Position numbers and translations under genes: made by a program
Shown here: positions 3,027-8,914 of the stretch, one piece after another
Position numbering within the stretch: the first letter of the stretch is position 1
Layout: each line of letters starts with the position of its first letter
IMG/VR virus record: IMGVR_UViG_3300032092_000082
Location: 1-39,902 of that record
Length of the DNA stretch: 39,902 bases
Reading direction: 5' to 3' (one strand)
Origin: a virus
Notes under the pieces: generated by a model
What the model was told of the DNA's origin: nothing
What the model saw: only the letters and a program-made list of their open reading frames with translations
Database searches by the model: none

Positions 3027-3811
3027 TCCCCGCCGTAAGCCTGGCCACGCCCTCCGAGATCTCGGGGATCGGAGGCTTTGTCGGTTCCGACGATTGGGTG
3101 GTCGAGCAGAAGGTAGACGGCCACCGCATCCGCATGTGGACCGGGAGTTCACCCCGGTTCGAGACGCGCAATGGGACCGAATACACCAAGTCGATTCCAG
3201 CGAGCATCAGAAACGCCAACATCCCCGAGGGCTGGGTGCTTGATGGTGAGCTCGCGGGCGGCGTGCTCTGGGTGTTCGACATCCTCTCCACGCAGGTCCC
3301 CATGTCCGGCCTGCCGCTCCGCGATCGCCGGGTCATCCTTGACCAGGTTCTCGATGCGTTCGGCAACGAGTCGATCAAGGCGCTCCCTCAGGCCACGACG
3401 ACCGAAGACAAGAAGGCGCTCGTGTTCCGAGTGGCGAACGAGGGCCTGGAAGGGGTCGTCGCTAAGGCGGCAGACTCGACCTACCACCCTGGACGCAACC
3501 GCTTCTGGTACAAGGTCAAGTACACCGCTACGGCTGACGTGATCGTCATGTCCGTTGGCGACGACGGCAAGGAGTCGGCGACCCTCGGCATCAAGACCGC
3601 CAACGGGGTCGTCGAGGTCGGCCGCTGTTCGCTGATCGGAAAGCCCCGAGTCGGCGTTGGCGATGTCGTCGAGGTCAAGTACCTCTACCTCACCGAAGAT
3701 GGCCGGCTGTATCAGCCAACTCTGATGCGCGTTCGATTCGACAAGAACCCGGACGACTGCGACGGAAGTGACTTCCGGGTCGTCTCCAAGCGCGTACTCG
3801 AAAGCCTGTAA
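3023..3811 (+). CDS. ATP-dependent DNA ligase
   Basis: Seals nicks in duplex DNA through a covalent lysyl-AMP intermediate. At 262 aa it is a minimal ligase: a nucleotidyltransferase domain plus an OB-fold. Motif I is EQKVDGHR (residues 28-35), with Lys30 as predicted nucleophile. Motif III/IIIa elements DGELAG and FDILS follow, then motif IV EGVVAKA and motif V WYKVK. The C-terminal half has OB-fold-like strands (VIVMSVGDDG, VGDVVEVKYLYL). The GTG start at 3023 overlaps the previous stop; upstream extension in this frame would overlap the preceding gene heavily. It probably serves phage replication or repair. Family assignment is firm; substrate preference is inferred. Confidence 0.93.
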   Translation: MIPAVSLATPSEISGIGGFVGSDDWVVEQKVDGHRIRMWTGSSPRFETRNGTEYTKSIPASIRNANIPEGWVLDGELAGGVLWVFDILSTQVPMSGLPLRDRRVILDQVLDAFGNESIKALPQATTTEDKKALVFRVANEGLEGVVAKAADSTYHPGRNRFWYKVKYTATADVIVMSVGDDGKESATLGIKTANGVVEVGRCSLIGKPRVGVGDVVEVKYLYLTEDGRLYQPTLMRVRFDKNPDDCDGSDFRVVSKRVLESL

Positions 3812-3821
3812 GGAGGGCGAT

Positions 3822-4103
3822 GTGAGCGACGAGACAACGGTCACTCAGGAACCGAACAAGACCGATCACAAAGACATGCCGATCCTGCTGACGCGTCACG
3901 AAAGTAGCCCCCTGCTGGCCACCGACCGTTGCGATCGGTGTGGCGCTCAGGCCTATGCCTCGGCAACGATCAAGGAGACGGTGCTGCTGTTCTGCGGCCA
4001 CCACTTCCGCAAATACCTGGACGCCCTGTGCATCCAGGCTGACTCGGTGGATGACTACACCGCCGAACTCGACAACACGGGAATGACCAGCGCCATCGTC
4101 TAG
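3822..4103 (+). CDS. DUF7455-like small zinc-binding protein
   Basis: 93 aa. GTG 3822 sits behind AAGGAGGG (3810-3817). The core contains CDRCGAQAY and, ~22 residues later, FCGHHFRKY, giving a CxxC plus CxHH metal-binding site. From memory this matches DUF7455, a small family common in actinobacteria and their phages, of unknown function. The N-terminus is polar and probably disordered. It ends the ligase block; the following leader at 4117 starts another. Confidence 0.85.
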   Translation: MSDETTVTQEPNKTDHKDMPILLTRHESSPLLATDRCDRCGAQAYASATIKETVLLFCGHHFRKYLDALCIQADSVDDYTAELDNTGMTSAIV

Positions 4104-4116
4104 GACGGCGCACGGA

Positions 4117-4130
4117 GGCCCTAGGAGGCC
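4117..4130 (+). promoter_or_regulatory. Start-associated GGCC-N6-GGCC leader, copy 2
   Basis: GGCC, CTAGGA, GGCC, located 2 nt before the GTG at 4133. AGGAGG forms the Shine-Dalgarno. It is preceded by GCACGGA, similar to the GCACGA preceding copies at 15167 and 16490. No convincing -10/-35 pair is visible upstream. Confidence 0.55.
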
Positions 4131-4132
4131 CA

Positions 4133-4858
4133 GTGAGCGACGAACTGCTGACCATCGAAGAGGCCCTGGACTTCCAGGACCGACTGCCTGACACCTGGAA
4201 GCGATACCGCGTCGGCATCGCAGAGCGACGCGAACAGAACGGCTGGACGATCGAGCCCTTCTCCATCGACCGCGACTGCGCGGCGCGCAAGCGCTACATC
4301 CTCGAAGGCGGCCTTGACCGTGATTGCGGATGGGGCGATGGCTTCACGATGCTCAAGAAGAACGGCGTCATCTGGATGTCTGACACCAGGGCCGAGATCA
4401 TGGAGCACTCGCCCTTCCTCAACAAGCTCTGGTGGCTCGAAGACGCAAAGCCGCGAGTCCTCATCAACGGCCTTGGGCTTGGTATGGCAGTTCGAGCCGC
4501 CCTGGTACACGGCGCGGAGCATGTGGATGTCGTGGAGATCGACCAGGACGTGATCGACCTGATCGGGCCGACGTTCGCCAATGACCCAGTCACCATTCAC
4601 CATGCAGACGCCTTTGAGGTCGAGTGGCCAGAGGGCACGACGTGGACCCTGGCTTGGCACGACATATGGCCGGCCATCGACGACGACAACCTTCCCGGCA
4701 TGGCCCAACTGAGGGCCAAGTACGAGAGCAGCGTTGAGTGGCAGGACTGCTGGCAGGAGGCGGGCTGCCGAGCGATGGAGGCATGGCGGGCCGAGTTCCA
4801 AGAGGCCCTCGCATCGGGCGACCTGGCCCGAATCAAGCAACTAGACCCCCACTTCTGA
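4133..4858 (+). CDS. Class I SAM-dependent methyltransferase-like protein
   Basis: 241 aa. A Rossmann-fold signature is visible: VLINGLGLGMAVRAAL (motif I glycine loop), then VDVVEIDQDVIDLI with an acidic residue at the end of strand 2, and IHHADAF (motif II-like). The layout resembles spermidine-synthase-type folds. The sequence TLAWHDIWP occupies the motif IV position, so the acceptor could be a small molecule, protein or nucleic acid. The GTG start at 4133 is set by the AGGAGG of the leader. The C-terminal ~60 residues are helical and Trp-rich. No DNA methylase DPPY/NPPY motif is present, so a DNA target is not supported. Confidence 0.78.
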   Translation: MSDELLTIEEALDFQDRLPDTWKRYRVGIAERREQNGWTIEPFSIDRDCAARKRYILEGGLDRDCGWGDGFTMLKKNGVIWMSDTRAEIMEHSPFLNKLWWLEDAKPRVLINGLGLGMAVRAALVHGAEHVDVVEIDQDVIDLIGPTFANDPVTIHHADAFEVEWPEGTTWTLAWHDIWPAIDDDNLPGMAQLRAKYESSVEWQDCWQEAGCRAMEAWRAEFQEALASGDLARIKQLDPHF

Positions 4859-7719: not shown

Positions 7720-7934
7720 GCCACATTGACGCCCTGCTCGACGCCGAGTTGCGATTTGAGGAGACCGGCTACGGCACCTGGGATCTCACCGCCGACGGAT
7801 CAACCCTGCTGCGTATTGAGCAGGACGACGAGGGAAAGAGGGCTTACCTCTGGGTGTACGGGGTACCGGACAGGCCCATTGCTGGACCGTTCGACATCGA
7901 CCTGAAGAAACTCAAGAAGCGGCTCAGGTCATGA
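7716..7934 (+). CDS. Hypothetical protein, 72 aa
   Basis: ATG 7716 overlaps the previous stop; no strong Shine-Dalgarno, so probably translated by coupling. Small acidic protein with a basic C-terminus (LKKLKKRLRS). Its stop overlaps the methyltransferase start, so the two may be co-translated. No known domain. Confidence 0.7.
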   Translation: MSHIDALLDAELRFEETGYGTWDLTADGSTLLRIEQDDEGKRAYLWVYGVPDRPIAGPFDIDLKKLKKRLRS

Positions 7935-8914
7935 AGTACGCATCCACGTTCGCTGGGATCGGCGGCTTCGACCTCGGCTTTGATCGAGCGGGGATGCAGC
8001 CGACCGTCCAAATCGAGATCGACGACAACTGCCAGAAGGTGCTGAGCCGCCACTGGCCCACAACACCGAAGGCAGGTGACATCTGTGACGTCAGCGGAAC
8101 CGATCTGGGAGAGCCCGACCTCATCTGCGGAGGCTTCCCCTGTCAAGACCTCTCCATCGCTGCGCCTCATCGGAAGGGACTCGCCGGAAGCCGGTCTGGC
8201 CTCTACTACGAGTTCACCCGTCTTGTCGACGAACACCTCAGGCTCGTCGACGCCAGCAAGCCCCGATGGACAGTCCTCGAAAACACCGAAGGGCTTCTCA
8301 AGAGTAACGGGGGACGGGACATGGCCGCCGTCGTCCGTGGTCTGGAAGAGCTCGGGTATGGGTGGGCCTACCGAGTGGTGGACGGGCGACACCTCGGCAC
8401 GACCCAGCGACGCCGTCGAGTGCTCGTGGTCGGACATCGTGGAGGAGACCCCCGACCCGCATGGGAAGTTCTGGGTGACGAAGGAGCAGGCAGCCAAGCT
8501 ACTGGAGCGCATCAAGTCGGCCGGTCCTCGAATGGACCCCGGCCTGTACCGAGCCCTGTCCAAACTGCTGGAACCGTAGTCTGGCGAAAGAGCGCCCGAG
8601 CCCGCGCCTCACTGGCTAAGGGCGGCTATGAGACGTGGAAGCCGGATGGCGACGCCAACACCCTCACCGGGTTCGACGGCGGTGGGCCCCTCCGGCAGAC
8701 GCACTTGATCGCTCAGGGCGGCGGACTCCGCACCCTGACGCTCACGGAATGGGAGCGCCTCCAGGGCTTCCCAGATGGATGGACCAAAGACGCGCCGGAT
8801 AGCGCCAGGTACACGCAACTCGGGAACGCCGTTGCTGTGCCGATGGGCGAGTGGCTGGGCCGACGACTGATGGCAGTCGAGGCAACCGTGCCAATGATCC
8901 GAACGACCGTCTGA
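7931..8914 (+). CDS. dcm: DNA (cytosine-5) methyltransferase
   Basis: Transfers methyl from S-adenosylmethionine to C5 of cytosine, probably protecting phage DNA from restriction. 327 aa, with the family motifs in order: I FAGIGGFDLGF (7-17), IV GGFPCQDLS (67-75) with nucleophile Cys71, VI ENTEG (117-121; usually ENV), VIII QRRRRV (159-164), and IX/X LTEWERLQGFPDGWT and QLGNAVAVP near the C-terminus. The target-recognition region between VIII and IX is short and overlaps another ORF in the +1 frame. No partner restriction enzyme is adjacent, so it looks like an orphan methylase. Starts at ATG 7931, overlapping the previous stop. Confidence 0.93.
   Translation: MKYASTFAGIGGFDLGFDRAGMQPTVQIEIDDNCQKVLSRHWPTTPKAGDICDVSGTDLGEPDLICGGFPCQDLSIAAPHRKGLAGSRSGLYYEFTRLVDEHLRLVDASKPRWTVLENTEGLLKSNGGRDMAAVVRGLEELGYGWAYRVVDGRHLGTTQRRRRVLVVGHRGGDPRPAWEVLGDEGAGSQATGAHQVGRSSNGPRPVPSPVQTAGTVVWRKSARARASLAKGGYETWKPDGDANTLTGFDGGGPLRQTHLIAQGGGLRTLTLTEWERLQGFPDGWTKDAPDSARYTQLGNAVAVPMGEWLGRRLMAVEATVPMIRTTV
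8076..8579 (+). CDS. Overlapping +1-frame ORF nested in the methyltransferase
   Basis: An open frame of 167 codons lies wholly inside the methyltransferase gene, shifted by +1. The first half is Ser/Pro/Thr-rich and looks like an out-of-frame product. The last ~70 residues look like a real domain: SSGMGGPTEWW, then SDAVECSWSDIVEETPDP, then a basic helical segment FWVTKEQAAKLLERIKSAG and a clean stop. From memory, phage ORFs with the pattern CSLSDxLE followed by LSxxAxxGILRRAxxRG occur next to or within phage cytosine methylase genes. The true start is uncertain: GTG 8076 is the first in frame, and no clear Shine-Dalgarno is visible. Function unknown. It could be a non-expressed shadow. Confidence 0.45.
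   Translation: MTSVTSAEPIWESPTSSAEASPVKTSPSLRLIGRDSPEAGLASTTSSPVLSTNTSGSSTPASPDGQSSKTPKGFSRVTGDGTWPPSSVVWKSSGMGGPTEWWTGDTSARPSDAVECSWSDIVEETPDPHGKFWVTKEQAAKLLERIKSAGPRMDPGLYRALSKLLEP

Follow-up and report, generated by a model that had tools for sequence, protein, structure and literature searches.

A +1-frame coding sequence nested in phage C5-cytosine methyltransferase genes and its very likely role as the small subunit of a two-chain enzyme

M.EcoHK31I (YGGCCR) is a C5-cytosine methyltransferase composed of two polypeptides, with motif IX residing in the small chain and the rest, including motif X, in the large one (PMC3404938). The small chain is reportedly encoded within the large one in another reading frame, and both chains are reported to be needed in vitro (Lee, Kam & Shaw 1995). 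In M.AquI (CYCGRG), the alpha chain carries motifs I-VIII and the beta chain the distal variable region with motifs IX-X (PMC3404938). A nested pair is furthermore annotated as 'C5 methyltransferase alpha/beta subunit' in phage MM1 (DQ113772, orf13/orf14), where the subunit names stem from the record, with no comparative or functional evidence for them having been seen. Long same-strand overlaps with demonstrable selection on both frames have rarely been documented in phages or bacteria, and searches of the open-access PMC literature, the sole literature covered, returned no description of a phage-wide nested methylase subunit.

The window, i.e., the complete 39,902-nucleotide stretch of IMG/VR virus record IMGVR_UViG_3300032092_000082, is a phage record with integrase, primase/helicase, Sak4-like and clamp-loader genes. 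It encodes a C5-cytosine methyltransferase, here termed alpha, and within the same bases a second open reading frame, here termed beta. The relevant features are:

7931-8914, plus strand: alpha, C5-cytosine DNA methyltransferase, 327 aa (PF00145, E 6e-53, residues 1-313)
8138-8146, plus strand: alpha motif IV, PCQ, with catalytic Cys71 (invariant columns)
8279-8284, plus strand: alpha motif VI, Glu117-Asn118 (invariant columns)
8405-8419, plus strand: alpha motif VIII, QRRRR; in the +1 frame the same bases form the beginning of the beta tail
8483-8716, plus strand: alpha residues 185-262, predicted to be disordered in alpha alone (pLDDT mostly < 50)
8729-8785, plus strand: alpha motif IX (RTLTLTEWERLQGFPDGWT), in the alpha frame
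8807-8845, plus strand: alpha motif X (RYTQLGNAVAVPM)
8074-8079, plus strand: candidate Shine-Dalgarno sequence AGGTGA, 5 nt before GTG 8085
8085-8579, plus strand: beta, nested +1-frame ORF, 164 aa, start GTG 8085, stop TAG 8577-8579
8099-8578, plus strand: region of suppressed synonymous change in alpha, about 1.25-2.9x, ending at the beta stop
8406-8576, plus strand: beta C-terminal module, homologue of SLSDILE...YYLS...GILRRA...LP..L..AL, three helices predicted

Alpha meets the criteria for a C5 methyltransferase, as motifs I, IV (PCQ), VI (EN), VIII (QxRxR), IX and X are present in order, and its AlphaFold2 (AF2) model superimposes on M.HhaI with a Z score of 29.7 over 253 residues. Sequence and model thus establish alpha as an intact and complete C5-cytosine methyltransferase, while its activity is inferred.

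The original prediction had stated that a +1-frame ORF with its own stop is nested in this methylase, and the ORF was confirmed. It lies wholly within alpha and ends in ...SDAVECSWSDIVEETPDPHGKFWVTKEQAAKLLERIKSAGPRMDPGLYRALSKLLEP followed by the stop codon; the alternative start GTG 8076 would yield 167 aa (8076-8579), and GTG 8085 is equally possible. The interval 8400-8579, on which the prediction had centered, corresponds to the C-terminal third of the ORF. Its placement within the target-recognition region held only in part, as the tail shares its bases with motif VIII and the first part of the variable region, not with a complete target-recognition region. The pattern CSLSDxLE / LSxxAxxGILRRA, which the prediction had given, proved to be the true consensus of the family. 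In this GC-rich gene (64% GC) neither the length of the beta ORF (P = 0.18) nor the chance of its frame staying open (P = 0.12) is significant, so the listing of the ORF is by itself no proof. A family profile matches the window at 8103-8579 with E 3.4e-43. Scored with a profile built without the window sequence, the +1 translation reached 98.7 bits vs. a mean of 42.6 and a maximum of 75.4 bits in 10,000 synonymous shuffles; for the tail alone the values were 26.7 bits vs. a mean of -4.8 and a maximum of 14.0. None of the 10,000 shuffles attained the real score, for the whole product and the tail alike. The +1 product of the window is a member of a nested beta family (SLSDILE-YYLS-GILRRA) with a score above synonymous expectation. 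Searches of Pfam and NCBIfam with the +1 product did not return any family match, a sequence search of solved structures with beta was likewise negative, and Foldseek with the beta model gave no meaningful fold match, an absence that is not evidence of a new fold.

A tblastn search with the +1 product of the window retrieved 16 phage records, and in all ten loci examined in full the product was located in the +1 frame of a C5 methylase. When a more typical family member served as query, 130 phage records were obtained, with the consensus ...DGTLxPSSxxWxNSGMGSxTECLTLNTSExPxDAxxCSLSDVLETxxVPxRYxLSxKACxGILRRAEKRGKxLPxxLxxAL. A stop-free +1 frame from motif IV to past motif VIII was present in 68 of 74 relatives of the window methylase, vs. 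3 of 74 for the +2 frame. Absence of homologues and frequent stop codons among close relatives had been named as outcomes that would refute the original prediction; on both counts the result was the opposite.

In 98 of 98 loci the frame relation was exactly +1 and the host gene a C5 methylase. These loci had mostly been selected by their +1 product, a bias on account of which further loci were chosen by alpha alone. With four alpha queries the +1 product, counted as present at a profile score > 15 bits, was found in 79/79, 75/75, 10/10 and 67/74 viral loci and in 38 of 76 loci from cellular contigs, the latter sampled only near the subfamily of the window. The seven viral loci lacking it all came from the query with the window alpha and each is accounted for: in L353 the domain is fused to alpha, in L404 and L410 an insertion at motif VIII precedes the tail, and L397, L422, L423 and L425 have a +1 ORF of another kind. 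The arrangement occurs in phages of Actinobacteria, Proteobacteria, Firmicutes, cyanobacteria and others as well as on bacterial and archaeal contigs, and the nested beta chain is almost never annotated in the records. In dmt of phage P1 (AF234172, about 66,710-67,201; L011, 1594-2085) an unannotated +1 ORF of 163 aa belongs to the beta family; its tail scored 92.8 bits vs. a shuffle maximum of 37.6, and the probability of the frame staying open is 0.0085. Two protein clusters, PHROG 16143 and PHROG 1008, match 82 and 11 of 87 beta chains, respectively, which means that gene calling has picked up the product in some phages. Their label, 'DNA methyltransferase', names the host gene and is silent on an overlapping subunit; it is misleading in that the matches are nested beta chains and not the catalytic chain.

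Selection on the second frame was assessed by permuting synonymous codons within each gene, keeping the alpha protein and codon usage. For 75 viral methylases selected by alpha alone and having a recognisable motif VIII, the real +1 product scored above every one of 60 shuffles in all 75 cases (median z 9.6); the median +1 ORF comprised 166 aa vs. 62 aa in shuffles, and the +2 frame 30 aa. Not one of 2,000 shuffles each for P1, MM1, Lucky2013 and a Vibrio phage reached the real +1 score. In a second approach, synonymous-codon identity was divided by its expectation for 150 non-redundant alphas. The ratio amounted to 1.04 for 7931-8075, 1.36 for 8076-8250, 1.67 for 8251-8405 and 2.26 for 8406-8579, was 1.04 downstream, and had fallen back to 0.97 in the bin that begins at 8579, where the +1 frame stops. 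The test of synonymous-site conservation suggested in the original prediction for 8400-8579 is thus positive (2.26x vs. 1.04 outside). Among 34 methylases without the ORF the ratio was flat, 1.03 overall. Such a profile is characteristic of an overlapping coding sequence whose limits coincide with those of the ORF. Sequence shows, in the absence of expression data, that the +1 ORF is a genuine second coding sequence under selection throughout the family, and the conditional claim of a true overlapping gene is supported to the same extent.

Start signals are enriched in the family. An open ATG or GTG start with a Shine-Dalgarno sequence of at least 4 nt was found at 236 of 348 loci vs. 57 expected from synonymous shuffling, and one of at least 5 nt at 167 loci vs. 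20.5 expected. In some phages alpha's own KEW codons carry the Shine-Dalgarno sequence (AAGGAGTGG). The start in the window is a GTG with a modest Shine-Dalgarno sequence, and start signals of single loci are weak.

Concerning the function of the second protein, the original prediction had proposed a partner or a regulator of the methylase. A partner is favoured, without interaction having been shown, because two genomes have the domain fused to the methylase and eight loci carry motif IX in the +1 frame. The fusions were found in L353 (virus) and L180 (Lyngbya contig), where stops interrupt the +1 frame and the beta domain follows in frame after alpha motif X (tail-profile E 6e-14 and 2e-12, respectively). 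With the fused piece as tblastn query 90 phage records were retrieved, and those examined in full, e.g., NihilNomen, Lucky2013 and Rctr41k, match in the methylase +1 frame. Among the eight loci with motif IX in the +1 frame, motif X was identified in alpha by pattern in L116, L191, L395, L401 and L421 and by eye in L178; in L173 the +1 frame holds both motif IX and motif X, and in L383 motif X was not located. A tree requires four changes for the four motif IX-in-+1 loci it includes; it is built on a short domain, leaves many forks open, and its count of changes does not distinguish gain from loss. Segments of one enzyme have moved between two chains, as is evident from the relocation of motif IX.

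Many ordinary one-chain C5 methylases feature an LxDILE..KYYLS hinge element soon after motif VIII, and this element is present in frame in none of 215 beta-bearing alphas. The beta-tail profile matches the in-frame hinge element of two ordinary methylases (E 8e-4 and 5e-3), and a profile-profile comparison places the tail at the right position with weak support (hhalign probability 28%). That the beta tail and the classical hinge element are homologous is inferred from a short, weak match. In the AF2 models, which are of single chains only and were computed from an input alignment without phage-collection sequences, alpha is folded at residues 1-182 and 265-327 and disordered at 185-262, and order in beta is confined to the last ~45 residues (pLDDT about 88-95 from residue ~131). 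The predicted chains would thus be complementary, each being loose where the other is constrained. Taken together, the sequence evidence strongly supports both selection on a second protein and a partnership of this protein with alpha.

The locus in the window resembles M.EcoHK31I in that an ORF for a small chain is nested in a large one in another frame. Eight other loci share with it the presence of motif IX in beta, at least six of them with motif X in alpha. In contrast, the window and most of its relatives have motif IX in alpha (8729-8785 in the window) with beta ending before it, and on this ground the window enzyme is not classed as EcoHK31I-type. That beta works like the beta chain of M.EcoHK31I is an analogy only; homology of the two beta chains is not established and a need for both chains is inferred. 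The MM1 pair matches in that its nested +1 ORF occupies the homologous position, has the same CSLSDILE..RYFLS core and scores above all 2000 shuffles, whereas its tail is shorter and lacks GILRRA. M.AquI is likewise a two-chain C5 methylase, and its split architecture is resembled only by L173. What appears to be new is a phage-wide nested two-chain variant with motif IX kept in alpha, inferred from sequence to be widespread.

Our best explanation, which we consider very likely, is that beta is the small subunit of a two-chain C5 methylase and is encoded by an overlapping gene, with the complex, the expression in the phage of the window and the catalytic need for beta being inferred. A single mRNA would be read from two starts. 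Ribosomes initiating at 7931 would produce alpha, consisting of the catalytic/AdoMet domain (motifs I-VIII) and motifs IX-X without the LxDILE..KYYLS hinge element, and ribosomes initiating at GTG 8085 (or 8076) in the next frame would produce beta, whose N-terminal part is mostly disordered and whose helical C-terminal module is putatively related to the hinge element missing from alpha. Beta would bind alpha, its C-terminal module would complete the small DNA-recognising domain of alpha in trans, and the likely role of the resulting active enzyme would be the modification of phage DNA against host restriction, which is also inferred. The fact that alpha retains all catalytic motifs and may therefore work alone counts against this explanation, as do the insignificant ORF length in the window, its GTG start with a modest Shine-Dalgarno sequence, the weakness of the hinge-element match, the lack of a fold match for beta and the absence of expression or biochemical data.

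Among the alternatives, the one that survives best, though unlikely, is that the +1 protein is real but constitutes a regulator or an unrelated protein, e.g., one acting in anti-restriction or DNA binding, with no more than the locus in common with the methylase. In its favour, the N-terminal two thirds are predicted to be disordered, the tail is a basic helical module and direct interaction data do not exist. On the other hand, the in-frame fusion to alpha and the repeated relocation of motif IX point to one enzyme, and all nested copies, most of them chosen by the +1 ORF, reside in C5 methylases.

Programmed frameshifting inside alpha would result in a chimaera in which the beta tail follows the alpha N-terminal domain, with motifs I-VII connected directly to a hinge-like tail, an argument resting on reasoning only. 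Such frameshifting is very unlikely, since synonymous constraint and the open frame reach ~300 nt upstream of the tail to the start codon, starts with a Shine-Dalgarno sequence are enriched about 4-8 fold, and a frameshift near the tail would lose motif VIII, which is frame 0 of the same bases.

The +1 similarity could also be a by-product that mirrors the conservation of motif VIII and its neighbours in alpha without any second protein. Part of the likeness is indeed forced, because the +1 peptide VECSLSDI overlaps the strongly conserved QRRRRVFVVGH, and shuffles retain mean scores of 22-43 bits. However, real +1 scores exceed those of all synonymous shuffles, synonymous constraint reaches the exact +1 stop and does not extend beyond it, the +2 frame is devoid of signal, and the domain also occurs where the +1 frame is closed, fused to the alpha C-terminus (L353, L180), so that this explanation is all but excluded and, for the family, refuted. 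RNA or DNA elements likewise suppress synonymous change, but such an element instead of a protein can be all but ruled out, as the constraint is +1-frame specific and fits an ORF with start, Shine-Dalgarno sequence and stop, and the peptide recurs outside the overlap (L353, L180).

Returning to the two-chain enzyme, a bolder reading, which we regard as likely, holds that the C5 methylases of phages are a large and ancient two-chain class, mostly unannotated and written twice in the same DNA, in which the beta tail is a transplanted small-domain module, motif IX has repeatedly been traded, the chains have occasionally been re-fused, and Dmt of P1 has an unrecognised subunit of this kind, at about 66,713-67,198 of AF234172. 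If true, many annotated phage 'DNA methylases' would be half an enzyme, so that cloning alpha alone or synonymous recoding could destroy activity, which would offer a possible explanation for methylases that appeared inactive. The family would also offer a naturally occurring platform of split methylases whose architectures are graded (nested, motif-swapped and fused), and the curiosity of 1995, EcoHK31I, would become testable in phage P1.

Several other nested or split arrangements were observed. A second, different type of nested +1 ORF in C5 methylases is present in L397, L425, L422, L256, L212, L222 and L254, where motif VIII of the host gene resembles GAPHxRER, alpha keeps motif X, and the +1 frame features WPTP-like repeats and a motif IX-like NPTWVEWLMGFPxGWT. 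It exceeds the length in synonymous shuffles (L397: 505 vs. 121 aa), tblastn retrieved 133 phage records (Paenibacillus, Mycobacterium), and it is possible that this WPTP type represents the true EcoHK31I type. In L016 (760-1680), L404 (3420-4360) and L410 (3420-4360) an HNH endonuclease-like gene is located in the alpha +2 frame directly after motif VIII; the alpha frame is open through the insert of ~230 codons, beyond which the beta tail continues in +1 (Thibault gp103/gp104), such that open, partly conserved sequence exists in three frames. In L178 a Vsr mismatch endonuclease is encoded on the minus strand (3691-4314) near the Treponema methylase with motif IX in the nested frame. Finally, the mycobacteriophage records L001 and L002 (Omegavirus) contain a methylase split into two CDS, with alpha stopping after the variable region and motifs IX-X continuing in another frame.
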